Shown: piece by piece, positions 1 to 50,615 of the stretch | Position numbering within the stretch: position 1 is the first letter of the stretch | Layout: each line of letters begins with the position of its first letter | Assembly (NCBI GenBank): GCA_964017235.1 | Contig: OZ024927.1 | Location: 25,563,160-25,627,159, forward strand | Reading direction: 5' to 3' | DNA: 64,000 bases | Source: Sabellastarte sp. h YS-2021 | Taxonomy: Eukaryota > Annelida > Polychaeta > Sabellida > Sabellidae | Notes under the pieces: model-generated | What the model saw: the letters and a program-made list of their open reading frames with translations, nothing else | Told to the model about the DNA's origin: nothing | Database searches by the model: none | Translations under genes and position numbers: made by a program

Positions 1-144
1 CAAACAGACCATCATCACTTCTGAATGGCATTTGTCTGGACCAGGCTTTACCTGGTAGAGGAGGGACCACAATCTGAAACATGAAACAATGCAAATCTGA
101 TGAAGGTAGCTACAATTTTTGTAAGTTTTAAAACATGTTAATGA

Positions 145-630
145 CTTTGGAACAATGGGCTATGGCGGCCAGATTGTTTATTCAAAATGAGGTTCAAATT
201 TTTAATTAACATGTTTTCATAGCCAAAAATATTCTGTCTAAATTTGGTGAAGATATCTTCATAAATGAATGAGATATAAAGATTTATCTAAAAACATGAC
301 AAACCGAAGGACGGATGCATGTATGGAAGGCAATTTATGATCTCTCGATCCCAGCCTCCGGAAAGCAGGAGATGGGCTGTTTTATATTCTTAATGATTTT
401 CAAAAATCAGCTATGGCGGCCATATTACTTTTCAAAATGAAGACAAAATTTTGCACAGGTATGTTTTACCAGCCATAAACGTTCCCTGCAAATTTGAAGG
501 TATGTTTGTAAATAAATGAGACATAAAGGTTTATGTAAAAATGTAATGAACAGATGGACGGATGCACGCATATGGAAGGTGCTTTATAATCTTCCAAACA
601 TGGCCTATGGCTGTTGACAGGGTATAAAAA
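145..630 (+). repeat. Two tandem units of about 250 bp
   Basis: Two diverged units start with gctatggcggcca at about 160 and 411. Each continues through a ttcaaaatga segment, a catagcc/ccagcc segment, an aatgagayataaagrtttat segment and a gacggatgca segment, giving a period near 251 bp. No coding frame. The gctatggcggcca motif recalls the atggccgcca boxes in the larger arrays downstream. Confidence 0.6.
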
Positions 631-1419
631 TACATCCACATGGATTAAGTACCCACTGATCTAGTTACAGAAAGATCAAGAAAGTTGCATCTTGTTTTGT
701 ACTAAAATATCTATGTCAATGAAAGTAATTTGACTTAAAGTTAAAATTATTTATTTTTGTAAAGAAAATGAATAATGACAATGCTACACACGTTGGACAA
801 GTCATAGATACTGAAGACTGTTCACTAGGGTGAACTAGGGTTTCTGTCCATGTGAGCCAACCCTACAGAAAAAGTTGAGCACTGTTTGTTGGGATCTCAA
901 GGAACCCCTGCTTCTTTTGACACAGGAATTCCTGATATATCATTGGATAAGACCATTTATTGGGTTGGACTGTATGTATATATTGCATATATATAAATCT
1001 AGTGTGAAAAGAGTACATTTTATCAAGTTTTTTGTGTCAATATATTTACCTTACTGTCTCTTTCTAACTCTCCTCGAAGCCAATCAAAATCACTGTATCT
1101 TCTTCGGACACTGGATTCCTTGACTTTAAATACTGGGAGATTTGTCTGAAGAAAATTTATACAAGATTACTTCACAATAACAGCTGGAACTAGAAAATGT
1201 TTGAACTTTCATTATAAATACAGTTGCATATTATGTGAGGTGTGTTGTTATATCTCAACTGTTACAGTATATCTCATTAAGTGACTATAATCAAAGCATT
1301 TTATGTCTCACATCAAAGGCTTCAAGACATGGATCTGGATAATTTTAAAATATTTTTTTTTTATATAATTATGACAACCATCAGCAAAACTAGAGGATCG
1401 CTCGCAAAAAAAAGATAAT
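631..1419. other. No recognisable gene or element
   Basis: AT-rich sequence with only short open frames and no homology or repeat structure I can name. Confidence 0.5.
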
Positions 1420-1569
1420 GTTTTTGCATAGCAAAAACAAAGCGTCCCGAAAAGGATATAAAGGTGAGTGCTAAAGTATTAAGAAAATGCTTCGTTTCTA
1501 GCCTTATACTATTGTGGCAACCAAAGTCAGCGCAGTCTGCTCTATCTAGCACGGTTTTCAAGATATAAG

Positions 1570-1800
1570 CATTTTTGTGTTTTGAAAAAAATAAAAAAAT
1601 TAAAAATGTCCGCTATATTTGGCGAGACAAAAATATTTTGAAAATTGGCATGGCTACTCTGCAGAGATACCCAGCAGGTCCAAAATTTTGTTGAGTTCGC
1701 TCCATATAGCACGGTTTTTGAGATATAAGCATTTTTGTGTTTTGCAAAAACTTTGAAAATTCAAAATGGCCACCATTTTTGGGGAGACAAAAATTTTTGT
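1570..1800 (+). repeat. Diverged units of the 166-bp satellite
   Basis: One complete and one partial unit with the aaaatg-gcc-gcc-att type core, a tctgcagagatacc segment, a tctatctagcacggtttt segment and gagatataagcatttttgtg. These are diverged copies of the 4.4-5.4 kb array, separated from it by the 133-bp array. Confidence 0.65.
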
Positions 1801-4432
1801 CAAGACCACTGCCGTGGTGTGTATCTCCCACCGAGCATTAAAGCAGAAGAAATAGCTTTTCCGAGATATTAACAATTTTTCATTTTCGTGTGTGAAAGGT
1901 CTTCCAAAAGTAGGTGAATGAGTTATTTGAGAAAAATTGGCTATCTGCAATACTATTAAGAGATAATTCACATTTACTCATTTTGAGTAGGTGAATAATT
2001 ATCTATGGGTGTGAAACTTCACCAAGTGAAAGCTCTCCCAAAAGTAGGTGAATGAGTTATTTGAGAAAAATTGGCTATCTGCAATACTTTTAGAGATAAT
2101 TCGCATTTACTCATTTTGAGTAGGTGAGTAATTAGCTATGGGTCTGAAACTTCACCATGTGAAAGCTCTCCCACAAGTAGATGAATGAGTATTTGATAAA
2201 AATTGGGTATCCGCAATACTTTTACAGATAATTAGCATTTACTCATTTTGAGTAGGTGAATAAATAGCTATGGGTCTGAAACTTCACAGAGTGAAAGCTC
2301 TCCCAAAAGTAGGTGAATGAGTTATTTGAGAAAAATTGGCTATCTGCAATACTTTTAGAGATAATTCACATTTACTCATTTTGAGTAGGTGAATAACTAG
2401 CTATGGGTCTGAAACTTCACCAAGTGAAAGCTCTGCCAAAAGTAGGTGAATGAGTTATTTGAGAAAAATTGGCTATCTGCAATACTTTTAGAGATAATTC
2501 GCATTTACTCATTTTGAGTAGGTGAGTAATTAGCTATGGGTCTGAAACTTCACCAAGTGAAAGCTCTCCCAAAAGTAGGTGAATGAGTTATTTGAGAAAA
2601 ATTGGCTATCTGCAATACTTTTAGAGATAATTCGCATTTACTCATTTTGAGTAGGTGAGTAATTAGCTATGGGTCTGAAACTTCACCAAGTGAAAGCTCT
2701 CCCAAAAGTAGGTGAAGGATTAATTTGATAAAAATTGGCTATCTGCAATACTTTTAGAGATAATTCGCATTTACTCATTTTGAGTAGGTGAGTAATTAGC
2801 TATGGGTCTGAAACTTTACCAAGTGAAAGCTCTCCCCAAAAGTAGGTGAATGAGTTATTTGAGAAAAATTGGCTATCTGCAATACTTTTAGAGATAATTC
2901 GCATTTACTCATTTTGACTAGGTGAATAATTAGCTATGGGTCTGAAACTTCACCAAGTGAAAGCTCTCCCAAAAGTAGGTGAATGATTAATTTGATAAAA
3001 ATTGGCTATCTGCAATACTTTTAGAGACAATTCACATTTACTCATTTTCAGTAGGTGAGTAATTAGCTATGGGTCTGAAACTTCACCATGTGAAAGCTCT
3101 GCCAAAAGTAGGTGAATGAGTTATTTGAGAAAAATTGGCTATCTGCAATACTTTTAGAGATAATTCGCATTTACTCATTTTGAGTAGGTGAGTAATTAGC
3201 TATGGGTCTGAAACTTCACAGAGTGAAAGCTCTCCCAAAAGTAGGTGAATGAGTTATTTGAGAAAAATTGGCTATCTGCAATACTTTTAGAGATAATTCG
3301 CATTTACTCATTTTGACTAGGTGAATAATTAGCTATGGGTCTGAAACTTCACCAAGTGAAAGCTCTCCCAAAAGTAGGTGAATGATTAATTTGATAAAAA
3401 TTGGCTATCTGCAATACTTTTAGAGATAATTCGCATTTACTCATTTTGAGTAGGTGAGTAATTAGCTATGGGTCTGAAACTTCACCATGTGAAAGCTCTT
3501 CCAAAAGTAGGTGAATGAGTTATTTGAGAAAAATTGGCTATCTGCAATACTTTTAGAGATAATTCACATTTACTCATTTTGAGTAGGTGAGTAATTAGCT
3601 ATGGGTCTGAAACTTCACCAAGTGAAAGCTCTCCCCAAAGTAGGTGAATGAGTTATTTGAGAAAAATTGGCTATCTGCAATACTTTTAGAGATAATTCGC
3701 ATTTACTCATTTTGAGTAGGTGAGTAATTAGCTATGGGTCTGTAACTTCCCCATGTGAAAGCTCTCCCACAAGTAGATGAATGAGTTATTTGATAAAAAT
3801 TGGGTATCCGCAATACTTTTACAGATAATTCGCATTTACTCATTTTGAGTAGGTAAATAATTAGCTATGGGTCTGAAACTTCACCATGTGAAAGCTCTCC
3901 CAAAAGTAGGTGAATGAGTTATTTGAGAAAAATTGGCTATCTGCAATACTTTTAGAGATAATTCACATTTACTCATTTTGAGTAGGTGAGTAATTGGCTA
4001 TGGGTCTGAAACTTCACCATGTGAAAGCTCTTCCAAAAGTAGGTCAATGAGTTATTTGAGAAAAATTGGCTATCTGCAATACTTTTAAGAGATAATTCGC
4101 ATTTACTCATTTTGAGTAGGTGAGTAATCATCTACGGGTCTGAAACTTCACCATGTGAAAGCTCTCCCAAAAGTACATGAATGAGTTATTTGATAAAAAC
4201 TGGGTATCCGCAATAGTTTTTGAGATAATTAGCATTTACTCATTTTGAGTAGGTGAGTAATTAGCTACGGGTCTGAAACTTCACCAAGTGAAAGCTCTTC
4301 CAAAAGTAGGTGAATGAGTTATTTGAGAAAAATTGGCCATCTGCAATACTTTTAGAGGTAATTCGCATTTACTCTTTTTGAGTAGGTGAGCAATTAGCTA
4401 TGGGTCTGAAACTTCACCAAGTGAAAGCTCTT
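1801..4432 (+). repeat. 133-bp satellite array with a conserved left module
   Basis: A left module beginning caagaccactgccg, with tatctccc and ccgagatatt (1802-1885), precedes about 19 tandem copies of a 133-134 bp unit. Unit starts read at gtgaaagctct fall at 2291, 2424, 2557, 2690, 2823 and 2957. Most copies differ by a few bases, so homogenisation is recent. The same left module recurs at 24150 and 25199, and the same 133-bp family forms a second array at 26.2-28.3 kb. No copy is coding. Confidence 0.9.
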
Positions 4433-5390
4433 TGGGATAGCTGCTCTGCAGAGATACCCTGAAGATAAAAAATTTCGTCGAAATCGCTCTATGTAGCACG
4501 GTTTTCGAAATATTAGCATTTTTGTGTTTTGCAATTTTTGCGCAAAAATTCGAAAATTCAAAATGGCCGCCATTTTTGGCGAGAGAAAAATTTTTTTGAA
4601 AATTGGCATGGCTACTCGGCAGAGATACCCTGTGGGTCAAAAATTTCGTCGAAATCGCTCTATCTAGCACGGTTTTCGAGATATAAGCATTTTTGTGTTT
4701 TGCAATTTTGCAAAATTCGAAAATTCAAAATGGCCGCCATTTTTTGCGAGAAATTTTTTGTTTGAAAATTGGCATGGCTACTCTGCAGAGATACCCTGTG
4801 GGTCAAAAATTTCGTCGAAATCGCTCTATCTAGCAGGGTTTTTGAGATATAAGCATTTTTATGTTTTGCAATTTTTGCGAAAAATTCGAAAATTCAAAAT
4901 GGCCGCCATTTTTGGCGAGACAAAATTTTTTTCAAAATTGGGATAACTACTCTGCAGAGATACCCTGCGGGTCACAAATTTCGTCGAAATCGCTCTATCT
5001 AGCACAGTTTTCGAGATATAAGCATTTTTGTGTTTTGCAATTTTTGCGAAAATTTCGAAAATTCAAAATGGCTGCCATTTTTGGCGAGAAAAAACTTTTT
5101 TGAAAATTGGGAAAAGTACTCCACAGAGATATCCTGCGCGTCAAAAATTTTGTCGAAATTGCTCTATCTAGCATGGTTTTTGAGATATAAGCATTTTTGT
5201 GTTTTGCAATTTTTGCGAAAATTTCGAAAATTCAAAATGGCCGCCATTTTGGGCGAGAAAATTTTTTTTTGAAAATTGGGAAAACTACTCCGCAGAGATA
5301 CCCTGTGGGTCAAAATTTTCGTCGAAATCGCTCTATCTAGCACGGTTTTCGAGATATAAGCATTTTTGTGTTTTCCTTATTTGGAAAATT
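4433..5390 (+). repeat. 166-169 bp satellite array with palindromic ATGGC core
   Basis: Between five and six tandem units; equivalent points fall 166, 166, 169 and 169 bp apart (4695, 4861, 5030, 5199). Each unit has aaaatggccgccatttt, a near-palindrome containing YY1-type GCCATNTT on both strands, plus ctgcagagataccctg and gagatataagcattttt. Because the period is not a multiple of three, the short open frames that run through it are accidental. Confidence 0.9.
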
Positions 5391-6486: not shown

Positions 6487-6869
6487 CTAATTTGCATAAT
6501 TTATTGAATGGGAATTCTTTGCTTTTGTGGACTTCAAATTGTATGTGTATCCCAGACTGTCTATAAGTTTGTCTTTCCCTCTTTTAATACTTCCGCTGAT
6601 TTTCTGGTAGGTCACTGGTCCCACTGAAGCAGTGATCACAACAGGTGGTTGTTCAGCCATGGAGGACTCGTGCATTGGCAGGGGTATATCATAGTTGGAT
6701 TTGGTGGAATTCTGGGGTTCATCAGCATTCAGATCTGGGACTGGATCTTCCTGGAGCAGATCATCTACCATGTCCTGCTGCATCACATGAGGGGCTTCTT
6801 CTTCCTGGGTCAGATCCAGGGCTGGACCATCTGGATAAATTCCTCACACTGGACAGCCACACTAGCCAT

Positions 6870-6871
<2 letters not shown>
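6487..6871 (-). pseudogene. FLYWCH zinc-finger gene fragment, 3' side of the LINE insertion
   Basis: Read on the minus strand, this encodes an acidic linker (QEEEAPHV, then DDLLQEDPVPDLNADEP) followed by the start of a FLYWCH-type domain: KRGKDKLIDSLGYTYNLK, matching the family pattern of a basic loop, KLvDs and GytY. The domain stops before its WxC...C half, either at an exon end or by truncation. It is the continuation of the zinc-finger fragment at 13850-14119, from which a 7-kb LINE separates it: the 29 bases at its upstream edge are repeated exactly beyond the LINE. Joining the two sides leaves the frames out of register, so the gene was already broken or an intron lay here. Related FLYWCH plus MULE-type genes are common in molluscs; a second copy lies at 17.8-18.5 kb. 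Confidence 0.6.
6843..6871. repeat. Left target-site duplication of the full-length LINE
   Basis: Twenty-nine bases starting ctcacactggacagcc and ending agccatag are identical to 13850-13878 on the other side of the LINE. The poly-T run starts at the next base. This fixes both ends of the insertion. Confidence 0.93.
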
Positions 6872-6904
<33 letters not shown>

Positions 6905-7066
6905 TTTATTTTACTGCATATTACATGTTTCAAAATTCTTTTACATAAAAGCAAAAATTGTTATATAACAAAAATTAGGAAACCAAAAGATAAAAAAAAT
7001 ACATAAATAAACATCAAGACCTGACCAGAAGGGGGTCTGTGGCTACTTTAGTAAGTAACTGATAGA

Positions 7067-10000
7067 TCAATTACTTGCCATTTCTTCCAGGGCTGTACCC
7101 CATTTATCCCAGATTCTATTGAAATTATCTTGTTTACCTGAGAGAACAGCAAGGTATTTTTCATCGGCATATGTTTGGTGATATCTACATTTCAATACAT
7201 TTAAGTTGAGAATGCCATTTGTAGCGTTTGTGTCTAAGATATATTTTTTTGTAACAAGTAATATCAAATTTAAAGGGATTTTGTTTCGGTCTCTATTCTG
7301 ATAGCCAAACATTTTATCGAAAGCTGAAAGTTTAATCTGAAAACCAATGATTTGACATATCAGTTCTTCTATTTCATTCCAAAACTCTACAATTCTATTA
7401 CATTCAACAAACATATGCAAAATAGTTTCACTTTCTTGACAATAACTACATTCTGCAGTGTCCACGATATTAATTTTCCTTAAATATGCCTTTGTAGGGA
7501 GTATTCTATAAATGAGTTTTAACTGAAACCACTGCAAGCTGTTGTTATCTAAACTGTTAAAACACACATTAAATATTGACATCCACATTTTGTCATCAAT
7601 ATTTATATCCAGCTCAAATTGCCATTTTTGTTTCATATTATGATTATTCTTTTCTTTTTGCAACAGTAATTTATAAAAGGCTCCTACTCCCTTATTATTT
7701 TTCCAAAGAGGTAATATGTAAAATGGAATAAAGGGCCTCTGCACATTAAAATCAACTACTGGCTTATATTTTTTAAGAAATTTCTTCACATTTTGCTGGA
7801 CTCTCAAATAGTGCAAAGGGTTAATAGAGTTAATAGAATATTCTTGTTTAACTTCGTCTAAGGTTTTAATTGAACCATCTAAGTTAAGAACATCGGATAC
7901 TGCAGTTATGCCCTTTTCAAACCAATTTGGAATGAACATTTCATGACAAGACATGTTAGTATTGTACCATAATGGACTTGTTATTACAGCTAAGTTTGTA
8001 TGCGGTTGGTATTCATTTGTAAAAAGGTGCCAAGCACTGAATACATCTATCCAGAATTTATTCTTAGTCCTGTTTTTTAACAGTAGATAATATCCTGGCC
8101 CGCTATGTGTTAATTTATGAAGTGTTACATTGAAGGATTGTTCAAAAAGTGTTATCCACAATGACTGTGTTGTGGTTAGCAAAAGTCTTCTAATCCATGA
8201 TACTTTCAGAGATGTTATAAAGTACTTTAAGTTAAACATTTTTAGTCCCCCTAATTTTTTATCAAGTACAATTGTTTGTCTATTTATTTTGTCAGGCTTT
8301 GAGGACCATATAAATTTAAAAAATATATCATTAATTTCCTTTATGTATCCTTCATGTGGGTCTGGTAAAACTAAGAAAAGGTGATTTAATTTGGACAGCA
8401 GAAATGTTTTAATGATTGCTATTTTTCCCAAAGGTGTTAGGTACCTTTTATTCCATCTGTTGATTATTTCTTTAATTTCTGCTATCTTTTCAGAATAGTT
8501 AAGTTTTAGACAACTGTCCAAATCTAATGAAATATAAATGCCCAGTAACTTGAAACTAGGTACAATACTAAATGTACAGTCCTTAATAATAATTTTATCT
8601 TTACTGGCCTTTTTTTTACCTATCCAGGCTATCTGTGTTTTATCTTTATTAACCTTTAATCCCGAAAAAGTGCCAAATATTTCTAAAGTATTAAGTGCTG
8701 CCTGTAATGATTCCATGGTACCATCAAGTATCAGTGTTGTGTCATCGGCGAACTGTACTAACTTAAACTCTGCATTACCGATTTTGACTCCTTTTATAGA
8801 TTTATTATTCTTAATGAGGATTGTTAGAATTTGTGCAACAATAATAAATAAATATGGGGCAATGGGGTCTCCTTGTCTGCATCCCTTTTGTATGTTTATG
8901 AAATCAGATAATACACCACACTGGATAATGGTCGCCATAATATTGTGATTAAAAAGTTTAATCCATTTTATAAATTTTTCAGAAAAACCCAAATGAGCCA
9001 GCGTTTGGTAGATGAACGACCATGAAACACAATCAAATGCCTTTTCAAAATCAATTAATACTAGCATTCCAGGTATATGGTGGTCTTCTGTAATTTTCAT
9101 TATATCTAATATCAATCGAGTGCATTCACCAATATATCTTCCTGGGACGAAACCACATTGAGTTTTATCAATAATTTGATCTAAACAAGGCTTCATTCTG
9201 TTTGCAATCGCTGCAGATGCCAACTTATACAAGACTGACAGCATTGACAAAGGACGCCAGTTCTTAATTCTGTCCCTTGACTTTCCTTTCTTGGGAATAC
9301 ATGTTACAATGCACTGTCTCAGTGTTAAAGGCAGGCACCCCTTGTCAAAACTGAAATTTATTGCATTAGTAATGCAGAACTTTAAATCTTTCCAAAAAAA
9401 TTTAAAAAACTCAGAAGGAAATCCGTCCAAGCCCGGGGTTTTATTATTTTTAGTATTTTTAAGTGCTATACCTATTTCCTGTATTGTAAGGTAACCTTCA
9501 ATTAATTTAGCTTGTTCTACACTCAGGGTTTTAACTTGACAATTCTTTAGCTGTTCATTCCAATCGAACAATTCTATACTTTCGGTGGACTCATAAAGTT
9601 TTGCATAATAAGTTTTTATTTCATTCAATATTTTCTTCTGGTCCCTAATATAAATTTCACCTTGTTTATTTAGGCACTTTATAGTTTTATCAACATAATT
9701 ATTGTGTTCTAGTGCACAAAAAAAACTTGAAGGTTTCTCACCTTCAGCTAACCATTGTATTCTAGACCTTATCATGTGTCCCTTCAGTTCTTTTTTTCTA
9801 AACTCAACAAGTTCTTGTTTTTTTAATTCTAATATATCAGGATCAAGAGTATTTTCACCAGCCTCTAATTTTTCTATTTCTGAGATTAGGGTTTTCTCAA
9901 GTTTTAACTCGAGTTTCTTTATCAATGCTGCATATTTAATTGTCTCACCCCGAATTCTTAACAACAGGACCTCTAAAAATGTATCCGGTTCAATGGTTAA

Positions 10001-10903
10001 ACATAGATCTTGGACGCAACAGTTTTCCAAAAAAACATAGCTGTATATAGGAGCTGTATATTTCAGATATTCTTCTCGTATACAATTTCTGATTAAGGAT
10101 ATATATTCTTTGTCCTTTAATAAGCTTGTGTTGAGTTTCCATGTTCCTCTTCCCCTTTTAAAGTGACTAATTAAAAAGGTTAGTTCTACCATTGAGTGGT
10201 CGCTCCTATAGCCTGGCCTTATATTTACACTTGTGGTTAAGTCTGTAAAACATGAAGATGTTATGATATAATCAAGACGGGCTTGTTTTAATGGGTTTTT
10301 TTTGCGCCATGTGTATCTCTTTGTTTCAGGGTTATAATTTCTGAATGTATCTATGAGGTTGTTCTCTGAGATAAAGTTATTTACGTATCTTCTGGCTTGG
10401 GGGTTGTTAATAGTTATATAATTGAAACTGTCTAATGCTGGATTAAGTGTCATGTTAAAGTCCCCACACCAGATTAAGTAGTCATATTCACTACTCTGAA
10501 ATTGTTCTGTAAGAGTAGAATAAAAAGTGGGGTCGTCATTATTTGGTCCATATATATTAACGATTTTCAATTTCATATCACTAATTTCAATATCAATTAT
10601 CAATACATTTCCCTCTTCGTCAGTGTATTTATTCAATATTTTGTATTCAAATTTGTTGCTGAAGAATATAGCAACCCCTCTGGCATTACTATGGATGCCA
10701 TGCAATAGAAAGTCACAATCCCACATCATTTTGACTTCTGACACATCTTGCTCTGTTAAGTGTGTGTCTTGGAGGCAGATAATATCTGCTTCCATATTTT
10801 TGAAATAATTAAGAACATCATATCTTTTGGATTTATCCTTAAGTCCTCTACAGTTCGCCGATAACACTTTCACCTTATCTAATTTTTCAGCCATTGTCAT
10901 CAT
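7067..10903 (-). CDS. LINE ORF2: endonuclease and reverse transcriptase
   Basis: Protein of 1278 residues that nicks target DNA and copies LINE RNA by target-primed reverse transcription. Endonuclease at about 10-245: N17, LQDTHL (44-49), NIYGP (116-120), GDFN (147-150), RLDY (209-212), SDH (234-236). In most L1 enzymes the second motif is QETH; here the metal-binding Glu is Asp, and the independent LINE at 57.9-62.1 kb has the same change. RT at about 480-790: KTPGLDGFP, NWRPLS, LVLIDFEKAFD, GCRQGDPIAPYLF, and FADD at 718-721, the catalytic box. A Cys/His knuckle (CSYC...H...C) lies at about 1152-1168, as in L1 ORF2. The frame is intact. The start may be MMTM or the internal MAEK; both precede the endonuclease. 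Close relatives lie at 58-62 kb, 62.3 kb, 57.2 kb and 24.6-31 kb. Confidence 0.95.
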   Translation of the reverse strand: MMTMAEKLDKVKVLSANCRGLKDKSKRYDVLNYFKNMEADIICLQDTHLTEQDVSEVKMMWDCDFLLHGIHSNARGVAIFFSNKFEYKILNKYTDEEGNVLIIDIEISDMKLKIVNIYGPNNDDPTFYSTLTEQFQSSEYDYLIWCGDFNMTLNPALDSFNYITINNPQARRYVNNFISENNLIDTFRNYNPETKRYTWRKKNPLKQARLDYIITSSCFTDLTTSVNIRPGYRSDHSMVELTFLISHFKRGRGTWKLNTSLLKDKEYISLIRNCIREEYLKYTAPIYSYVFLENCCVQDLCLTIEPDTFLEVLLLRIRGETIKYAALIKKLELKLEKTLISEIEKLEAGENTLDPDILELKKQELVEFRKKELKGHMIRSRIQWLAEGEKPSSFFCALEHNNYVDKTIKCLNKQGEIYIRDQKKILNEIKTYYAKLYESTESIELFDWNEQLKNCQVKTLSVEQAKLIEGYLTIQEIGIALKNTKNNKTPGLDGFPSEFFKFFWKDLKFCITNAINFSFDKGCLPLTLRQCIVTCIPKKGKSRDRIKNWRPLSMLSVLYKLASAAIANRMKPCLDQIIDKTQCGFVPGRYIGECTRLILDIMKITEDHHIPGMLVLIDFEKAFDCVSWSFIYQTLAHLGFSEKFIKWIKLFNHNIMATIIQCGVLSDFINIQKGCRQGDPIAPYLFIIVAQILTILIKNNKSIKGVKIGNAEFKLVQFADDTTLILDGTMESLQAALNTLEIFGTFSGLKVNKDKTQIAWIGKKKASKDKIIIKDCTFSIVPSFKLLGIYISLDLDSCLKLNYSEKIAEIKEIINRWNKRYLTPLGKIAIIKTFLLSKLNHLFLVLPDPHEGYIKEINDIFFKFIWSSKPDKINRQTIVLDKKLGGLKMFNLKYFITSLKVSWIRRLLLTTTQSLWITLFEQSFNVTLHKLTHSGPGYYLLLKNRTKNKFWIDVFSAWHLFTNEYQPHTNLAVITSPLWYNTNMSCHEMFIPNWFEKGITAVSDVLNLDGSIKTLDEVKQEYSINSINPLHYLRVQQNVKKFLKKYKPVVDFNVQRPFIPFYILPLWKNNKGVGAFYKLLLQKEKNNHNMKQKWQFELDINIDDKMWMSIFNVCFNSLDNNSLQWFQLKLIYRILPTKAYLRKINIVDTAECSYCQESETILHMFVECNRIVEFWNEIEELICQIIGFQIKLSAFDKMFGYQNRDRNKIPLNLILLVTKKYILDTNATNGILNLNVLKCRYHQTYADEKYLAVLSGKQDNFNRIWDKWGTALEEMASN

Positions 10904-11192
10904 TTAACGGTATCAAGTCATCACTTGTTTTGTAGGTTGATATCAAAATGATCAAAACAGGCACCAATTTTTGGGAGGGATAAAATATAATGTATAGTTC
11001 CCTATTTAAGTTAGATATTTTTTCGGCTATTAATATATCAGACTTTAAGGTAGTAATACAATAATTCCATATGACCACAGTTAGAGTTTTAAGAATTAAT
11101 AAATATATGTGGACACAAGAATGAAAACAGACAATATACAACATAATATGCAGTGAAACAGCAAAAATAAAAAAAACAGAAAGAAAAGAACA

Positions 11193-11211
11193 ATATATAT
11201 ATATATATATA
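11193..11211. repeat. (TA)n microsatellite
   Basis: A pure TA run of about 19 bases in the LINE inter-ORF region. Confidence 0.9.
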
Positions 11212-11688
11212 AGCAAAATGAAATCACTGACCTTAACTGGGACAATTACTTCATATGGTTATTTATGCTACATAATAACATATGTACTTTTTGTGTGTGA
11301 ATGATATTCAGTAGCCATAGTTGATACATGCATTATAACATCATTGCAAGTGGTAGTTTTTTTAAATTATCTAATTAGCCAAGCTATACAATAATAACAT
11401 TGAAATTGTGTAGCTATCTAATTTGTCATGGTTTATCTGTCAACAACATCCATATTCTCAAAATGTTAAATGTGAAAGTTGCATTATCAATGCCTCTAAA
11501 TGCAGGCAAGTTAATTCAATTTCGTGAGATAGCCACTGAGTGTAATCTTTAACTTGTTGTGATTTAATAATTCCACAATCATGATTATGCAAAACTATCC
11601 AGATATTTTACTTGAGCATTAGTCAAGTGTCTGATATTATGAAAAAAGTACCTGCGATAAAAGAGTACATTATATATGTCTTACATGA

Positions 11689-11839
11689 CAAAGTCAAAGT
11701 TGGGGTTTAACGTCCCGTTCAACAGCCAGGGTCATATTGGGACAGGTCCTCAGCATTGCCACTTGTGGGACTCGAACCCACAGAGGTGACAGCCTATGAT
11801 TAGATGCCAAACTTGCTAACCACTAGGCCACCGAGGACC
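11689..11839 (-). mobile_element. tRNA-derived SINE with 16-bp target duplication
   Basis: Read on the minus strand it starts with a tRNA-like head containing box A-like tggcctagtggttagc and box B-like gggttcgagtccc, followed by a short body and the tail gggacgttaaacccca, which is typical of mollusc Meta-type SINEs. The 16 bases tatatgtcttacatga flank it exactly on both sides (11673-11688 and 11840-11855). It inserted into the LINE inter-ORF region after the LINE had arrived or in its source copy. Not a functional tRNA gene: there is no complete cloverleaf with a separate 3' end. Confidence 0.9.
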
Positions 11840-12241
11840 TATATGTCTTACATGAAGACATCATTACCAAGTCATTTAATTCAAAACTGGGAAAGGCTTC
11901 ATTACCAATTTAATATCAACTGGTTACAAACCCAGTAAATTGAAATCACAAGGCAACACTTTTTATACATATTGTTCAAGAGACATTTCTTTTCTGTGTG
12001 GCCTGAATGTGTACTATATTTGAAATTATAGGTGGTTTAAACACTAGTAGGTTCACAAGACACAGAGGCAACTCTCTTATAGTCCATATTGACAAGCTTT
12101 ATGTGACCATTTACAGTACACATTTGGACATGACGAATTTTCAGTCCTACATGTTACACATGATTTGATAACATTACTACGGTTTGTCAAAAAAAACTAC
12201 CAAAGTCTCATGAAGAAACCATATAACAACTTGGTTTAAAG

Positions 12242-13423
12242 TCACATAAGTGTCTGCCTCACTCTTTCTAAAGTTTTACCTGCAAGGTTCTTGCCAGACC
12301 ACTTTGCCTCATTAAAAAGGTCGCGACTTCTGAGGGAATGGCCAATGCCCCATAGCTTATCTGTTCCACTTGCCTCGATTAACTTATTTCCACTTGTGGA
12401 GAGGAGAAATCCCCGAAGGGCTTCATTTTGTGTGAACTTCAGCAACATCGCTTGGTACATGTACTCTGTTGATACTCTATTCCACTCATTCTTTTGGAAA
12501 CCTTGAATTTTTTTCCCCAACTGCTTGACTATTTCTGGTTCTTTTGTTTCAATAATAGTTTGTGCAGTCTCTCCATCCTCAAAATGCATTGCCTTCTTGT
12601 AGGTAAAGTAATGCTCTGAAGTGATAAAACTTTTTCCTTCAGCCTCGATTCTCGCTGGAAAGAAGTTGCTCAGGGGGGAGAATTTTGTGTAGTATGCTTG
12701 GATGCCAGATCTAACTGGGCTGAAGACTCTTTCAGGCAGTAGTTCAGGAAACTGTATTGTATTAATATTATCTACTGTGTATATTCTTCCTCCAAGATTA
12801 ATCTTATCGACATTAAGCTTTGGATTTAGTCCTGGATACAGCTCTAGTGCCTTGAAAAAAATAGGAAGGATCATTTTCCTCCTGTCCATGATTTCCCTGG
12901 GGTAGTCTTCCTGTATAGAAATATTCATCTGGTGCAGTCCCTCCTTTTTGCCCATGATAGCCTGCTTATCTTTCCAGTGGGCGAGGCGTAGTATGACTGG
13001 TCGTCTTTGTCCAAGGTTAGGGTGACCCAGGTAGTGCACATTTTCAATATCTCGTGGGTTGACAGCAACTCCCACTTGTTTTAAAGTCTGGATAACAACA
13101 TCTTCCAGTTTCTGTTGATTTTGAATTATAATTCCATAGAGCCTTACATTCTTTTTCCTGGAATATGTTTCCTGTGCCAGCATTTCTTCTTTCACTTTCT
13201 TATTTTGTGCCTTCAGTTCATCTAATTCCCTCTGTAGTGACATGTGTTTAACTTCATGATCTTGGCATCTTTTTTCAAGGGACTGAATTTTTTCAGTTGA
13301 GTCAGTTACCTGGGATAGTGATTGTTCTATGCTCTCCAGTCTCTTTGTGATTGGTTCTAACTGTTCATTTAATATAGTATTAAAACTTTCAAGGAGATCT
13401 TTCAGGGTATTTTCAGAAGCCAT
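12242..13423 (-). CDS. LINE ORF1: coiled coil, RRM-like domain and C-terminal NADAR domain
   Basis: Protein of 393 residues. Residues 10-88 form a charged heptad-rich coiled coil, as in trimeric L1 ORF1 proteins. Residues 91-170 resemble the ORF1 RRM-like RNA-binding fold (NVRLYGI; RRPVILRLAHWKDKQAIM), and 170-230 the ORF1 C-terminal domain (QEDYPREIMDRRKMILPIF). The remaining 243-393 are not expected in L1 ORF1: they follow the NADAR (YbiA/DUF1768) pattern with SPLSNF (249-254), TSEHYF (268-273), KAMHFED (277-283), W314, KF (329-330), LIEASGTDKLWGIG (348-361) and W-GKNLAGKTLERVR at the end. The key Glu of SEH and the E-x4-D-x2-WG-G block are kept. NADAR proteins act on ADP-ribose-type N-glycosidic substrates, including ADP-ribosylated guanine in some toxin systems. 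The RNA-binding part should package the LINE RNA; what the NADAR part does is unknown. ORF2 follows 1.3 kb downstream. Confidence 0.85.
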   Translation of the reverse strand: MASENTLKDLLESFNTILNEQLEPITKRLESIEQSLSQVTDSTEKIQSLEKRCQDHEVKHMSLQRELDELKAQNKKVKEEMLAQETYSRKKNVRLYGIIIQNQQKLEDVVIQTLKQVGVAVNPRDIENVHYLGHPNLGQRRPVILRLAHWKDKQAIMGKKEGLHQMNISIQEDYPREIMDRRKMILPIFFKALELYPGLNPKLNVDKINLGGRIYTVDNINTIQFPELLPERVFSPVRSGIQAYYTKFSPLSNFFPARIEAEGKSFITSEHYFTYKKAMHFEDGETAQTIIETKEPEIVKQLGKKIQGFQKNEWNRVSTEYMYQAMLLKFTQNEALRGFLLSTSGNKLIEASGTDKLWGIGHSLRSRDLFNEAKWSGKNLAGKTLERVRQTLM

Positions 13424-13849
13424 AACTGTACTTTTGAAGCCTGTGTAGTAGTTTACTTGTCAAATACACTCTTTTATAATTTATGATATTACTGTTCTAC
13501 TGTTCTATGAGATTAGTGTTACTTGTTTGTACCTTGTAGTCAAAATAAATCCAAGGTTATGTTGAAGCTCTAGCTGGCAAAATCTTTTCCTGCTGTACTC
13601 ACAGCAAGGTAATACTTGTTTACATGTACTTGGTATCTACTGTACTAGGTATGATGGTGGTGATCCACTTTATCCTCTCATAATAGTCTTTTTTAACACT
13701 TTTGAAACATTTTTGAATAATCCACTTGATTAACACATGTTTATATTGTAATGTATCTTAATATATTCTTTATAATGCAATATACATATTAATTATTAAG
13801 TTTCCATCCACAACACAAAAATTCCACCTCTTCACCAGTAAGGGGTCAT
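13424..13849 (-). promoter_or_regulatory. 5' UTR and presumed internal promoter of the LINE
   Basis: The 426 bases between the 5' end of the LINE, fixed by the target duplication, and the ORF1 start. L1-type elements carry their promoter here. No TATA box or known motif stands out; the segment is non-coding and AT-rich. Confidence 0.5.
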
Positions 13850-13878
13850 CTCACACTGGACAGCCACACTAGCCATAG
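13850..13878. repeat. Right target-site duplication of the full-length LINE
   Basis: Exact 29-base match to 6843-6871. The two following bases tt match the start of the poly-T run and are ambiguous. Confidence 0.93.
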
Positions 13879-14119
13879 TTGATCTGGTCACTGGTTGTAC
13901 AGCTCTTACAACAGAAAGCCTAGTACTTTCTACAGAGGGCATAAAGGGATTATCCAGAGTACAGTCCTTACATCTCCATTCAAAAGAATGGACAGCAGTC
14001 AGCTGGCTGTACTTGGCTCTGGACATCCCAGTCCCACAGTCACAGCCATCACATTGTAGAGCCTGTTGGTGGGCAGTCACTACTTTTCTACAGGAGACAC
14101 AGAAATCTTTTGTAGACAT
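13850..14119 (-). pseudogene. PHD-like zinc-finger fragment, 5' side of the LINE insertion
   Basis: The minus-strand frame begins MSTKDFCVSCRKVV and keeps CxxC, QALQCDGC and EWRCKDC of the PHD-like finger that precedes FLYWCH domains in many mollusc proteins. The usual WQH..C segment between the second and third cysteine pairs is missing: CDGCD is followed directly by CGTG, so a small in-frame deletion has removed a metal ligand. The frame runs to ASVAVQCE and then into the LINE 5' end. The first 29 bases of the interrupted part (13850-13878) are duplicated at 6843-6871. The partner fragment with the FLYWCH start is at 6487-6871. Whether the gene was expressed before the insertion is unknown. 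Confidence 0.6.
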
Positions 14120-26164: not shown

Positions 26165-28287
26165 CATAAAAAAACTTTAGCATGTGAAATATCTCCAAAA
26201 TGTAGGTGAATGAGTTATTTGAGAAATACTGGCTATCTGCAATACTTTTTGTGATAATAGGCAATTACTCATTTTGAGTAGGTGAGTAATTAGATATGGA
26301 TCTGAAAATTCACTAATTGAAAGTTCTCCCAAAATATAGGTGAAGTGAGTTATTTGAAAAATACTGGCTATCTGCAATACTTTTACAGATAATTCGCATT
26401 TACTCATTTTGAGTAGGTGAGTAATTACCTACAGGTTTGGAACTTCACCATGTGAAAGCTCTTCCAAAAGTAGATGAATGAGTTATTTGATAAAAATTGG
26501 GTACCCACAATACTTTTAGAGATAATTAGCATTTACTCATTTTGAGTAGGTGAGTAATTACCTACAGGTTTGGAACTTCACCATGTGACAGCTCTTCCAA
26601 AAGTAGATGAATGAGTTATTTGAGAAAAATTGACTATCTGCAATACTTTCAGAGATAATTCGCATTTACTCATTTTGAGTAGGTGAATAATTAGCTACAG
26701 GTCTGAAACTTCACCAAGTGAAAGGTCTCCCAAAAGTAGGTGAAGGAGTTATTTGACAAAACTTGGCTATCTGCAATTCTTTTAGAGATAATTTGCATTT
26801 ACTCATTTTCAGTAGGTGAGTAATTACCTACGGGTCTGAAACTTCACCAAGTGAAAGCTCTTCCAAAAGTAGATGAATGAGTTATTTGAGAAAAATTGGC
26901 TATCTGCAATACTTTTAGAGATAATTAGCATTTACTCATTTTGAGTAGGTGAGTAATTAGCTACAGGCGTGAAACTTTACCAAGTGAAAGCTCTCCCAAA
27001 AGTAGATGAATGACTTATTTGAGAAAAATTGGGTATCTGCAATTCTTTTAGAGATAATTCGCATTTACTCATTTTGAGTAGGTGAGTAATTACCTACGGG
27101 TCTGAAACTTCACCAAGTGAAAGCTCTCCCAAAAGTAGATGAATGAGTTATTTGAGAAAAATTGGCTATCTGCAATACTTTTAGAGATAATTCGCATTTA
27201 CTCATTTTGAGTAGGCGAGTAATTAGCTATGGGTCTGAAACTTCACCATGTGAAAGCTCTTCCAAAAGTAAGTGAATGACTTATTTGAGAAAAAATGGCT
27301 ATCTGCAATACTTTTAGAGATATTTAACATTTACTCATTTTGAGTAGGTGAGAAATTAGCTACAGGTCTCACACTTCACCAAGTGAAAGCTCTTCCAAAA
27401 GTAGATGAATGAGTTATTTGAGAAAAATTGGCTATCTGCAATACTTTTAGAGATAATTAGCATTTACTCATTTTGAGTAGGTGAGTAATTAGCTACGGGT
27501 CTGAAACTTCACCAAGTGAAAGCTCTTCCAAAAGTAGGTGAATGAGTTATTTGAGAAAAATTGGCTATCTGCAATACTTTTAGAGAGAATTCGCATTTAC
27601 TCATTTTGAGTAGGCGGGTAATTAGCTATGGGTCTGAAACTTCACCATGTGAAAGCTCTTCCAAAAGTAAATGAATGAGTTATTTGAGAAAAATTGGCTA
27701 TCTGCAATACTTTTAGAGAGAATTCGCATTTACTCATTTTGAGTAGGCGGGTAATTAGCTATGGGTCTGAAACTTCACCATGTGAAAGCTCTTCCAAAAG
27801 TAAATGAATGAGTTATTTGAGAAAAATTGGTTATCTGCAATACTTTTCGAGATATTTAGCATTTACTCATTCTGAGTAGGTGAGAAATTAGCTACAGGTC
27901 TGACACTTCACCAAGTGAAAGCTCTCGCAAAAGTAGGTGAATGAGTTATTTGAGAAAAATTGGCTATCTTCTATACTTTTAGAGATAATTTGCATTTACT
28001 CATTTTGAGTAGGTGAGAAATTAGCTAGGGGTCTGAAACCTCACTAAGTGAAAGCTCTTCCAAAAGTATATGAATGAGTTATTTGAGAAAAATTGGCTAT
28101 CTGCAATACTTTTAGACATAATTAGCATTTACTCATTTTGAGTAGGTGAGTAACTAGCTACGCGTCTGAAACTTAACCAAGTGAAAGCTCTCCCAAAAGT
28201 AGGTGAATGAGTTATTTGAGAAAAATTGGCTACCTGCAATACTTTTAGAGATAATTCGCATTTACTCATTTTGAGGAGGTGAGTAAG
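26165..28287 (+). repeat. Second 133-bp satellite array
   Basis: About sixteen units of the family seen at 1.8-4.4 kb: atttactcattttgagtagg, gagtaattagctacgggtct, gaaacttcaccaagtgaaag, tctcccaaaagtagatgaat, ttatttgagaaaaattggct and atctgcaatacttttagaga. The units are on average less alike than in the first array and contain more variants in the agtaggtgaat block. Confidence 0.9.
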
Positions 28288-30300
28288 TAGGCCAAAGTTC
28301 ACCAAACCATTTTCCCCTTAGCATAGGATACTCTAGTACTACCCTGTGGTTCAAAAATTTCCTCGAAATTTCTCTATCTCTTACAGTTTGAGAGATATTT
28401 CTGATTTTTCACATTTTTACTAAAAGTAGCAATAAAGTAGCCATTACTCACTTGTACATTGAGCAACAGTTGTGAAACTTAAATATATTACAGTTCACAA
28501 AAAAGTACATGAACAACATATTTGAGAGAAATTGTGTAGCTGCAATACTTTTGAAGATATAAGCAATTTACTCATTATGGTTATCATTAAAAATTGAAAA
28601 AGTAGCTATTACTCACTTAGCTATGGAGATACACTTCCAAATTACTGACCATGTTGTAGCTGTGGAGAAAGTAGCTGAACATCATATTGGAACAAAATTG
28701 TGTAGCTGCAATACTTTTGAAGATATAAGCCATTTACTCATTGACAGTTAAAAGTCATATAATTATATTAGGTAAAAGCGCTATTACTCACTCAAAAGTA
28801 GGCCAAAGTTCACCAAACCTTTCCCCCCTTATCAATAGGATACTCTAGTACTACCCTGTGGGTCAAAAATTTGTTCGAAATTGCTCTATATCTTACGGTT
28901 TGAGAGATATTTCTGATTTTTCACATTTTCACTAAAAGTAGCAATAAAGTAGCCATTACTCACTTGTACATCGAGCAACAGTTGTGAAACTTAAATATGT
29001 TACAGTTCACAAAAAAGTACATGAACAACATATTTGAGAGAAATTGTGTAGCTGCAATACTTTTGAAGATATAAGCCATTCACTCATTATGGTTATCATT
29101 AAAAATTGAAAAAGTAGCTATTACTCACTTAGCTATGGAGATACACTTCCAAATTACTGACCATGTTGTAGCTGTTGAGAAAGTAGCTGAACATCATACT
29201 GGAACAAAATTGTGTAGCTGCAATACTTATGAAGATATAAGCCATTTACTCATTGACAGTTATAAGTCATATAATTATATTAGGTAAAAGCGCTATTACT
29301 CACTCAAAAGTAGGCCAAAGTTCACCAAACTTTTTCCCCCTTAGCAATAGGATACTCTAGTACTACCCTGTGGGTCAAAAATTTGCTCGAAATTGCTCCA
29401 TTACTTTACAGTTTGAGAGATATTTCTGATTTTTCACATTTTTACTAAAAGTAGCAATAAAGTAGCCATTACTCACTTGTACATTGAGCAACAGTTGTGA
29501 AACTTAAATATGTTACAGTTCACAAAAAAGTACATGAACAACATATTTGAGAGAAATTGTGTAGCTGCAATACTTTTGAAGATATAAGCAATTTACTCAT
29601 TATGGTTATCATTAAAAATTGAAAAAGTAGCTATTACTCACTTAGCTATAGAGATACACTTCCAAACTACTGGCCATGTTGTAGCAGTGAAGAAAGTAGC
29701 TGAACAACATATTGGAACAAAATTGTGTAGCTGCAATACTTTTGAAGATATAAGCCATTTACTCATTATGGTTATCATTAAAAACTGAAAAAGTAGCTAT
29801 TACTCACTTAGCTACAGAGATACACTTCAAAACTACTGACCATGTTGTAGCAGAGGAGAAAGTAGCCGAACAACATATTGGAACAAAATTGTGTAGCTGC
29901 AATACTTTTGAAGATATAAGCCATTTACTCATTGTGGTTATCATTAAAAATTGAAAAAGTAGCTATTACTCACTTAGCTATGGAGATACACTTGCAAACT
30001 ACTGACCATGTTGTAGCTGTGGAGAAAGTAGCTGAACAACATATTAGAACAAAATTGTGTAGCTGCAATACTTTTGAAGATATAAGCCATTTACTCATTA
30101 TGGTTATAATTAAAAATTGACAAAGTAGCTATTACTCACTTAGCTATGGAGATACACTTCCAAACTACTGACCATGTTGTAGCTGTGGAGAAAGTAGCTG
30201 AACAACATATTAGAACAAAATACTGTAAATGCAATAGTTTCAGAGTTATAAGCCGTATAATTATATTAGCTAAAATAGCTATTACTCACTCAAAAGTAGG
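28288..30300 (+). repeat. Higher-order repeat of 511 bp made of 166-170 bp monomers
   Basis: The marker taggccaaagttcaccaaac occurs at 28288, 28799, 29311 and 30297: two complete 511-512 bp units and one enlarged to 986 bp. Within the last unit, gaagatataagc recurs exactly every 166 bp (29578, 29744, 29910, 30076), so the extra length is due to about three added copies of one internal monomer. The monomer reads ccatttactcattatggtta, tcattaaaaattgaaaaagt, agctattactcacttagcta and accatgttgtagctgtggag. The open frames at 29932 and 30146 lie in this monomer and are not genes. Confidence 0.88.
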
Positions 30301-48372: not shown

Positions 48373-48505
48373 TCTTTTTCGTTTGGCGCGAAAGAGTGTG
48401 CAGAAGTTTTTCTTCAGAGATACGTTTTTGAAGTTTTACAACATACTCATCCAAGTTTCATGTTTTTTATTAGTACAGAGTATTTCTACAACCTTACTGA
48501 TCATT

Positions 48506-50537
48506 ATGTCGTCTCCTGGACAGAAACGAGGTTCTTGCGGGCACGTTATGGCCCTTTTCGACAACCATCAGAAATGCGCACGTTGTCGTGACAAGGGGGT
48601 GGGAGACGACCCCTGTGTCAAAAAGCTGGATTGCCAGATCTGTAAGGCGTTTACACCTGCGCAGATCCATCAGTTAGCAACTCTGACTTACAAGGCAAGG
48701 AAGGAACGCTCTGAGCAGAAGAAGACTGAAGGTAATGCAAGCACGACCCCCACTCTAGTGGACCCTTTAGAAGTTACACTGTTGGGACGGGTTAGCTGTG
48801 ACAAGTCGCCCTCTGTTGATTCTACTCCAAAGCACAAGATGAAGCGTTCTGATGGTTCCCCAAGGTCTAGTAAACGGAAACGCAGCAGCAAACCTACTTC
48901 AGACGACCTCAAGTCCCTTGATGACAAGTGGAGTGAGAGATTCTCACGTCTGGAAGCCATGCTGGTAAACCAATCCTTTGCTGTTCCGGTGAGACCGGTG
49001 AACATCTGCCTCTGTGGTGCCCAGAGAACACCCTTTCTTTGATCCGGGTGCTTCTACAAGTGTTATGTCTTCTGAGGGCACTGGTGACGTTGCTACGCAG
49101 TTGACGGCTACCCAACCTCCGCTGGGGGTTCTCGGTACTGAGGCTGGGAGAGATGAAGTTGAGAGTGCTACCCACCCTGTTCAGGGCCCTGGTGCCTCCG
49201 AAGTGTTAGCCACCCAACCTTTACTGGTTCCCGGTGCAGGGACGGCCACCCAGCCTGCACAGGCTCCTGGTGCGGGTCCTGTGGTTCTGCCTGCCGGTGC
49301 TGAAACTACGCTGCATAACCAGTCGCCTCCCATTGGCCAGAACTCTGAGGTTGCTAGGGAATCTTATAGTGAGGCTGAGTTGGATACGGAACCGGCATCA
49401 CCGGCTAGTGTTCACTGCCAGGGTGATTTGCCGGACACGGCTACAGATCAGGACCTCTCTGAAGATGCCAATTACAGGGAAATTATTAGAGGGGTGAGAA
49501 GTTTCATGAAGTGGCATGACATCCCGGATTATGACAACTCAGCTGCCTCTATGGATGATAATCCTTTTGCCGGTTCCAGAGTGAAGACTACCGGTAAAGT
49601 GTCAGTTAAATTGCCGGTCGATGAATGGCTCTGCAAAAAACTGGAGAAACTTAATGTAACTTGCTGAAGGTTATCCTTCTAGAAATTCTGAAACCAGTGG
49701 ACTGCTACGTGACCAGTTTGTAAAGACTCCACGCTCTTCAAAGTGGTATGATATGCAAGCAGTTAAGAAGGGAGACGGGTCTACCCAGGCTGTATCCCAC
49801 TGGTCTCCGGAATGGGCAAAGCTGAACAGCATGTTCTCTAGGGTCGCAAGAAGAAGTTTACCTTCTGCTCCAGCTTCCCGTACGTTCAGCCAGGATACCC
49901 TTAGAAGGTGGGAGAAGGCGTTCAGGGAGCAATCCGTGATGTGTAATCACGCTGCTGGATTATCTAGATGTCTGACTAAAGTACAGGACTCCATGGTTAC
50001 CCAGCTGAAGTCTCTCCGGTCAGATTTATCAAAGGGCAAGAGTGCTGAAAGAACGCAGCAGGCTGTTGAAGAGCTTGAATATCTGGTGACTTTTAACAGG
50101 TCAATTTCCCAAGCTATGCAGCGCACCATGCAGAATCTCTCAGAGGGAGTGTTCATCAGCGTGGCCAACCTCACTCTGACACGTCGGGATAGCTATTTGG
50201 AGTTTATTCTTGGTGGAGTTAAACCTGACACCTTAACTGCCTTACGTACATCTCCAGTACACTTACTCTCAATGTTCCCAGACAGCTTACTGGTCAAGGC
50301 AGAAGATGAGATTTCACGTAGTGAGGAGAGGCGTTCTGTGGGTAACACACAGAGGAAACCCTGACGTTTTCATCCGTACGTTCCCTCCAGTACTAGATCT
50401 TCACACCAGCTGGACCGGAAGCCCACTACACCGGCTTGGAAACAAATCAGAGACCGGCAAACTGGTCAGAAAGGTGGAGGTAAAGCCTCAAACTTCAACC
50501 GAAAGCCGGCCAAAGGGTTTAAGAAGCATAAATGACA
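48506..50537 (+). pseudogene. DIRS Gag-like ORF, frameshifted
   Basis: Starts MSSPGQKRGSCGHVMALFDN with a Cys/His-rich segment (CARC, DPCVKKLDCQICK), followed by a basic low-complexity region (KMKRSDGSPRSSKRKR) and a coiled segment. The frame is lost near 49010. Homologous sequence continues in another frame through an acidic Pro/Ala-rich repeat region with APGAG and TQP repeats to KKLEKLNVTC, stops at 49665-49667, and resumes at 49753 with helical Gag-like sequence (WSPEWAKLNSMFSRVARRSL, LSRCLTKVQDSMVTQLKSLR). After another frame change near 50360 the tail HPYVPSSTRSSHQLDRKP..KKHK ends at about 50535. The order matches a single ancestral Gag of about 670 residues. Not translatable as one protein. 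Confidence 0.72.
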
Positions 50538-50615
50538 ATTATTGTGTTTCAAATGTGGTCGGATTGAAGGACTCTGTAATTGTATCCAACAAGATGGAGG
50601 GTTTGAATACCACCA

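Follow-up and report, generated by a model that had tools for sequence, protein, structure and literature searches.

We analysed a stretch of 64,000 nucleotides from the annelid Sabellastarte sp. h YS-2021 (contig OZ024927.1, positions 25,563,160 to 25,627,159), hereafter the window, and found in it a long interspersed nuclear element (LINE) whose ORF1 protein ends in a NADAR domain. The fusion is encoded by one open reading frame (ORF) of 393 aa on the minus strand, with its ATG at 13423 and its stop codon ending at 12242. The initial annotation had proposed a LINE ORF1-NADAR fusion at 12242..13423; the fusion was confirmed and the coordinates are correct, with the minus strand as the coding strand. 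Our best explanation, offered tentatively and from sequence, is that the domain is an active N-glycosidase that would remove guanine-ADP-ribose on the LINE ribonucleoprotein (RNP), as self-protection or counter-defence.

The domain assignment is far above chance. Residues 247-392 matched the Pfam NADAR family (PF08719) with an E-value of 8.8e-42 over profile positions 9-162 of 163, thus the full domain, and the score was 143.6 bits against a gathering score of 35.1. The protein also matched NCBIfam TIGR02464 (2e-42), the PDB structure 8bau (4.3e-20), which we take to be the oomycete PnNADAR, and the YbiA structure 2b3w (4.3e-13). The motifs read earlier in the translation, SPLSNF, TSEHYF, LIEASGTDKLWGIG and NLAGKTLERVR, are present in that order, although the reported W-x-x-R is actually W-N-R (W314, R316). 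In the YbiA subfamily, the position equivalent to PnNADAR E125 holds Glu and not Asp or His (PMC11543638). The window protein has Glu there (E350), as do all 40 aligned ORF1s described below, and because of E350 we placed its NADAR in the YbiA subfamily.

For the N-terminal part, no Pfam ORF1 family, Transposase_22 included, matched the window ORF1 protein, and Transposase_22 was absent from the 25 shown of the 109 families in the scan of the 40 aligned ORF1s. A profile built from these 40 ORF1s matched LINE-1 ORF1p structures (2ykp, 1.3e-11, profile positions 51-208). This profile search supports the coiled coil, RRM and C-terminal domain (CTD) architecture of L1-superfamily ORF1, and the L1-type N-terminal part described in the initial annotation stands.

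Whether such a fusion had been reported before was initially left open; it had been. A LINE ORF1-NADAR protein is a kind already in print, since ORF1 proteins of several Tx1 LINEs of the oyster Crassostrea gigas appear to contain NADAR domains (PMC12477816). The same paper describes an Ectocarpus Gypsy lineage with NADAR in Pol, in an unclear role. The Tx1 label belongs to the oyster elements only (PMC12477816). Both the oyster and the annelid elements are animal LINEs with a YbiA-family NADAR in ORF1, and they are probably the same kind of element. Beyond PMC12477816, no other report of the combination was found among the papers listed in searches of the open-access literature, most subscription journals and bioRxiv preprints lying outside this search. 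The present analysis adds the residue conservation, the selection, the clustering of the LINE NADARs and the pairing of the cassette with several ORF2 lineages.

All genome searches were carried out on the window's own 1.79-Gb assembly, and the sampling of loci (numbered L001 onwards) was steered by similarity to the window ORF1. The whole-ORF1 search gave at least 105 scored matches (105 of 2828 first-look candidates) with 31-100% identity, many of them full length and stop-free. At least 150 matches were scored with the NADAR model (150 of 2705 candidates; control positive in 3 of 14 control genomes) and at least 150 with the ORF1 N-part (150 of 1362 candidates). Twenty loci, L009-L028, were selected as full-length ORF1 matches spanning the identity range. 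ORF1 and NADAR were in one frame in all 20, and 19 had a reverse transcriptase (RT) match downstream in the same orientation, L019 being the exception. ORF2 was one long frame in eight of them, and broken frames blur the spacer length in the rest apart from L018. Additionally, 14 loci with long frames were picked out of the NADAR search (L038-L051), and all of them had the ORF1 N-part. Six loci were selected by the N-part (L032-L037); three carried NADAR in frame, two had it cut short by the frame, and one, L037, had none. A genome search with Pfam Transposase_22 for NADAR-less L1 ORF1s gave no match, and its control was silent too.

In L037, positions 125-4669 form a single 1514-aa frame in which ORF1 residues 1-243 are joined in frame to ORF2, without NADAR and spacer. 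The junction is unique, being spanned by one of the 41 listed DNA matches and one of the 150 scored protein matches. A spliced retrocopy was considered and rejected, as the siblings L012 and L053-L055 read CAATTGTGAATCC at the right breakpoint and offer no GT..AG pair. Most probably L037 arose just once, by a deletion or a jump between templates.

The alignment of 40 ORF1s comprises the window, L005, L007, L009-L028, L032-L034 and L038-L051. The window itself (L001), the near-duplicates L002, L003, L006 and L008, the truncated L004, the cut-short L035 and L036 and the NADAR-less L037 were omitted. The other 39 members share 26-63% identity with the window ORF1, and all 40 match Pfam NADAR. The NADAR part is the most conserved, with a mean identity over 780 pairs of 0.455, compared with 0.36 for RRM/CTD and 0.256 for the coiled coil; it also holds 22 of the 27 invariant columns. 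Residue roles were taken from PMC11543638, and equivalences from the alignment of the window protein with 8bau, with an inferred index shift of 2 between the 8bau chain and the numbering of the paper. E270, K277, W314 and E350 (equivalents of PnNADAR E43, K50, W89 and E125) are kept in 40 of 40 ORF1s, D355 and W358 (D130 and W133) in 39 each, and the K75-equivalent, K300, is Lys in 35. In E. coli C7 NADAR, mutations of the counterpart residues E88, K95 and D171 impaired activity or rescue (PMC11543638). The LINE domain shares with PnNADAR, E. coli YbiA (2b3w) and the DarT1-associated NADAR the Pfam family, the Glu of the YbiA subfamily (E350) and E270, K277, W314, D355 and W358, whereas it differs from them in being fused to a retrotransposon protein and in usually having Lys at the R79-equivalent position.

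Twenty-three pairs had a NADAR synonymous divergence (dS) of 0.05-2; in 20 of them dS was above 1.3, near saturation, and only the remaining three were therefore tested for selection. The ratio of nonsynonymous to synonymous differences (pN/pS) in NADAR was 0.31 for L019-L021 (Fisher p 0.013), 0.18 for L044-L051 (3.6e-7) and 0.15 for L041-L038 (2e-4), with a pooled p of 2.5e-11. The N-part ratios in the same three pairs were 0.17, 0.15 and 0.11. In all three pairs, then, purifying selection acts on NADAR, and for the lineages concerned a neutrally drifting C-terminus is rejected. The initial annotation had listed three outcomes that would speak against it, namely no significant NADAR hit, loss of catalytic residues in related elements and a neutrally evolving C-terminus. 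None of them occurred: the model search gave a strong match, E270, K277, W314 and E350 are present in all 40 ORF1s, and pN/pS was 0.15-0.31. These data also bear on the idea that NADAR is a functionless passenger, kept by chance or hitch-hiking. The existence of the NADAR-less 1514-aa derivative L037, albeit as a single copy, speaks for a passenger; however, the selection in three pairs, the invariant active-site residues (40 of 40) and the retention of NADAR through changes of ORF2, described next, make a passenger highly improbable.

A FastTree phylogeny of 118 NADARs placed 40 of 40 LINE sequences in one clade (support 0.959), and IQ-TREE on a reduced set recovered the same clade with a moderate ultrafast bootstrap of 84. 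The comparison set contained five bacterial loci, viral relatives from a motif scan and a solo-NADAR element, and it left out eukaryotic host NADARs; because these lie outside the set, a single capture is valid only relative to the sampled NADARs. In the 20 elements with RT, namely the window and 19 loci, distances of the N-part agreed with those of NADAR (Spearman 0.87), whereas RT distances agreed poorly with those of the N-part (0.55) or NADAR (0.47). L017 and L015 are 57% identical in the N-part and 59% in NADAR but only 34% in RT, and L017 and L025 are 56% identical in RT but 28% in the N-part. L024 and L023 are 39% and 50% identical in ORF1 and 24% over 291 compared RT positions. Second copies support two pairings (L024/L133, 99.6% over 5953 bp; L017/L134, 98.9% over 5445 bp), and the L025 pairing rests on a single copy. 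Deeply different ORF2 lineages accompany ORF1-NADAR in L017/L134, L024/L133, L027 and L025. Because NADAR follows the ORF1 tree and not the ORF2 tree, ORF1-NADAR behaves as a single cassette that has been combined with three or more lineages of ORF2; the mover may be either ORF1 or ORF2.

The solo-NADAR element is a second multi-copy element (L029 2851-3336; L030, L031; L135 1411-1854) with a stand-alone 161-aa NADAR ORF, which falls outside the LINE NADAR clade in the FastTree phylogeny. Downstream of it lie a long ORF of no assigned family and a dUTPase ORF (Pfam 8.5e-20), and we read the element as virus-like or Polinton-like. Open frames of similar size (167-179) occur in the first 38 rows of the NADAR genome search, of which three were read. 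When three solo-NADAR, five bacterial and 72 viral loci were searched with the ORF1 N-part profile, no convincing match came up, and there was one weak match (L074, E 0.0039).

In the window, ORF1-NADAR and ORF2 lie in one complete insertion, 6872-13849. Its features are as follows.

6843..6871, no strand: target-site duplication at the 3' end of the element (31 bp with the following TT; exact match to 13850-13880).
6872..6912, minus: poly(A) tail, a T-run on plus (tandem repeat list, sequence).
7067..10903, minus: ORF2, 1278 aa, AP-type endonuclease, RT and zf-RVT, the last below the Pfam cut-off (Pfam; LINE-1 ORF2p structures, 8.5e-90).
10904..12241, minus: inter-ORF spacer, without about 913 bp of L002, L003 and L004 (copy comparison).
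11689..11840, no strand: inserted repeat resembling a short interspersed nuclear element (SINE), with a duplication of about 15 bp; not at this site in L002, L003 and L004.
12242..13423, minus: ORF1-NADAR fusion, 393 aa (ORF call, Pfam, NCBIfam, PDB).
12245..12709, minus: NADAR part, residues 239-393, Pfam 247-392 (Pfam, 8bau alignment, conserved residues).
12710..13171, minus: ORF1 residues 85-238, RRM and CTD part (profile matches to LINE-1 ORF1p structures).
13172..13423, minus: ORF1 residues 1-84, coiled-coil part (40-ORF1 alignment, ORF1p profile match; the boundary at 84 was chosen).
13424..13849, minus: 5' untranslated region, with 13849 as the 5' end (shared with L002 and L003).
13850..13878, no strand: target-site duplication at the 5' end of the element (exact match to the 3' copy).

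The RRM and CTD names for residues 85-238 are those of the matched LINE-1 ORF1p structures. ARAGORN found no tRNA, and the SINE/tRNA-like label of the repeat at 11689..11840 is a reading of the sequence.

The target-site duplication is perfect over 29-31 bp and, together with the 3' poly(A), gives the element the hallmarks of target-primed insertion of an L1-superfamily LINE; the 5' end at 13849 is common to the copies L002 and L003. ORF2 is a single frame, and its endonuclease and RT domains with the match to LINE-1 ORF2p structures identify an L1-like APE endonuclease-RT. ORF1 and ORF2 are the only ORFs of at least 180 aa inside the element, and both are open, as stated initially. The claim that the element is young largely holds: L002 and the window copy share 99.88% identity across a common stretch of 1717 bp, but the spacer of the window copy lacks the roughly 913 bp retained in L002, L003 and L004 and has gained the SINE-like insert of about 150 bp. 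The 913-bp gap, as we read it, also lacks GT..AG ends, like the L037 junction. Because near-identical copies exist, we infer that the window element is an L1-superfamily LINE that was active not long ago.

The element resembles mammalian LINE-1 in its L1-type ORF1 (2ykp, 1.3e-11), its ORF2 endonuclease-RT (8.5e-90), its poly(A) and its long target-site duplication, whereas the NADAR extension sets the window family apart. The inter-ORF spacer, short in human L1, measures 1.1-2.8 kb in the nine elements that have ORF2 in one frame (window, L009, L010, L012, L015, L022, L023, L024 and L027), and about 4.3 kb in L018.

Elsewhere in the 64-kb window, there is no further ORF1-NADAR match. A second ORF2 of the same LINE clade, broken and 49% identical, lies at 58164-61979 on the minus strand. 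ORFs at 48383-53741 resemble a DIRS/Ngaro-type element, with an RT-like ORF at 50616-52067 and a tyrosine-recombinase-like ORF at 52299-53741, a label that comes from reading translations. Tandem arrays are also numerous in the window, their units measuring about 120-170 bp; two of these arrays, at 1892-4431 (19 copies) and 26172-28290 (16 copies), have a similar 133-bp unit.

Concerning function, the NADARs that have been tested take ADP-ribose off guanine in DNA (PMC11125620) and off guanosine in RNA (PMC11833690). In the same sources they were inactive on phosphate-end ADP-ribose of the PARP14/Tpt1 type (PMC11833690) and on thymidine ADP-ribose (PMC11125620), and another describes inactivity on PARP10-modified uracil (PMC13036486). 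What NADARs do in animals is described as unclear (PMC11125620). Animal writers of guanine-DNA ADP-ribosylation are pierisin and clam CARP-1, the latter cloned from Meretrix, and guanine-N2 DNA ADP-ribosylating activity has been reported from six edible clams (PMC11209040). Macro and NADAR domains are also present in polyproteins of animal RNA viruses (PMC9503650), likewise selfish RNA-based elements with an ADP-ribose-processing domain beside replication proteins; there the host protein is a virus polyprotein, whereas here it is a LINE ORF1.

Given the guanine specificity of the tested NADARs, the likeliest job of the LINE domain would be cleaning guanine-ADP-ribose off the element's own nucleic acid. 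Mammalian L1 ORF1p coats LINE RNA in cis, and a NADAR at its C-terminus would sit on the LINE RNA and the growing cDNA. The RNA-binding part of ORF1 would hold it there, and NADAR would strip ADP-ribose from guanine bases within the RNP. Left in place, adducts of ADP-ribose on guanine would presumably stop reverse transcription or the synthesis of the second strand, and the cassette would protect the LINE from a guanine ADP-ribosyltransferase that belongs to the host or to its microbes.

Several points weigh against this proposal. D355 and W358 are each replaced in one of the 40 ORF1s, and the R79-equivalent is K304 in the window and Lys in 25, Arg in 6 and another residue in 9 of the 40 LINE copies, compared with Arg in 38 of 39 bacterial and viral relatives. 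K304 is a conservative change, and the pyrophosphate-binding R79 of PnNADAR is a ligand contact and not family-defining. In C7, it was Asp (D171) and not Glu that was tested as the essential acid (PMC11543638). E. coli YbiA, of the same subfamily as the LINE domain, is clearly weaker than C7 NADAR on guanosine-ADP-ribosylated RNA (PMC11833690), and it is known to work in riboflavin biosynthesis, where reactive intermediates are its substrates (PMC11543638). Data from clams, moreover, may not carry over to this host. A genome search with a Scabin-like guanine ADP-ribosyltransferase model, which we assume to cover CARP-1, gave no match, with its control silent too, and a genome search for DarT gave no match with a positive control. 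Within the element, ORF1 and ORF2 leave no adjacent DarT-type ADP-ribosyltransferase among ORFs of at least 180 aa, so that the LINE domain differs from the DarT1-associated NADAR of toxin-antitoxin systems. Finally, the invariant residues would also be expected of a domain that merely binds ADP-ribose.

This last point leads to the alternative that NADAR is a binding module, docking ADP-ribose or an ADP-ribosylated protein or nucleic acid (e.g. PARP-marked nicks) and aiding RNP targeting, with no catalysis needed. The nucleic-acid binding of ORF1p, known from mammalian L1, would suit such a module, as would the conserved ligand residues, the frequent replacement of the R79-equivalent and the many PARP catalytic exons of the host. 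However, K50 and E125 correspond to C7 residues that hydrolysis requires, and their equivalents do not vary in any of the 40 ORF1s, while the pyrophosphate ligand R79 drifts. A pure reader would predict the reverse, and we regard a binding module as unlikely.

Another view is that NADAR acts on soluble nucleotides, such as riboflavin intermediates, ADP-ribose derivatives or cyclic ADP-ribose-like signals, and clears a defence signal or by-product. The best NCBIfam model, TIGR02464 (2e-42), is a riboflavin-intermediate N-glycosidase, E350 points the same way through the YbiA subfamily, and soluble ADP-ribose derivatives are posited for viral NADARs (PMC9503650). A free enzyme, however, needs no fusion, and because NADAR is covalently fused to an RNA-binding protein in 40 of 40 copies, we favour a substrate located on the RNP and consider a soluble one unlikely.

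The initial annotation had suggested that the domain counters PARP-type defence, that is, removes phosphate-end or protein ADP-ribose. Because the host genome has many PARP exons (42 matches passed the cut-off, with 14 control genomes silent), we kept this reading under consideration; ZAP, moreover, is PARP13. ZAP restricts human LINE-1 (PMC4441479, PMC4423928). Nevertheless, the tested NADARs act on guanine and not on phosphate-end or PARP10 uracil marks (PMC11833690, PMC13036486), so that PARP marks are a poorer guess at the substrate and this function is quite improbable.

Returning to the erasure of guanine-ADP-ribose, a wider scenario is conceivable, if doubtful: a guanine-ADP-ribose eraser would have been captured once and joined to the RNA-coat protein. 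Since then the cassette would have moved as a unit and reached three or more ORF2 lineages that are deeply separated, because it shields LINE RNA and cDNA from an activity of the animal that ADP-ribosylates guanine. If true, this would amount to an arms race over ADP-ribose within the genome of an animal. That a LINE keeps NADAR under selection suggests that guanine-ADP-ribose marks may matter to the element. LINE ORF1 is usually regarded as a nucleic-acid chaperone, and the cassette would give it an enzymatic function.
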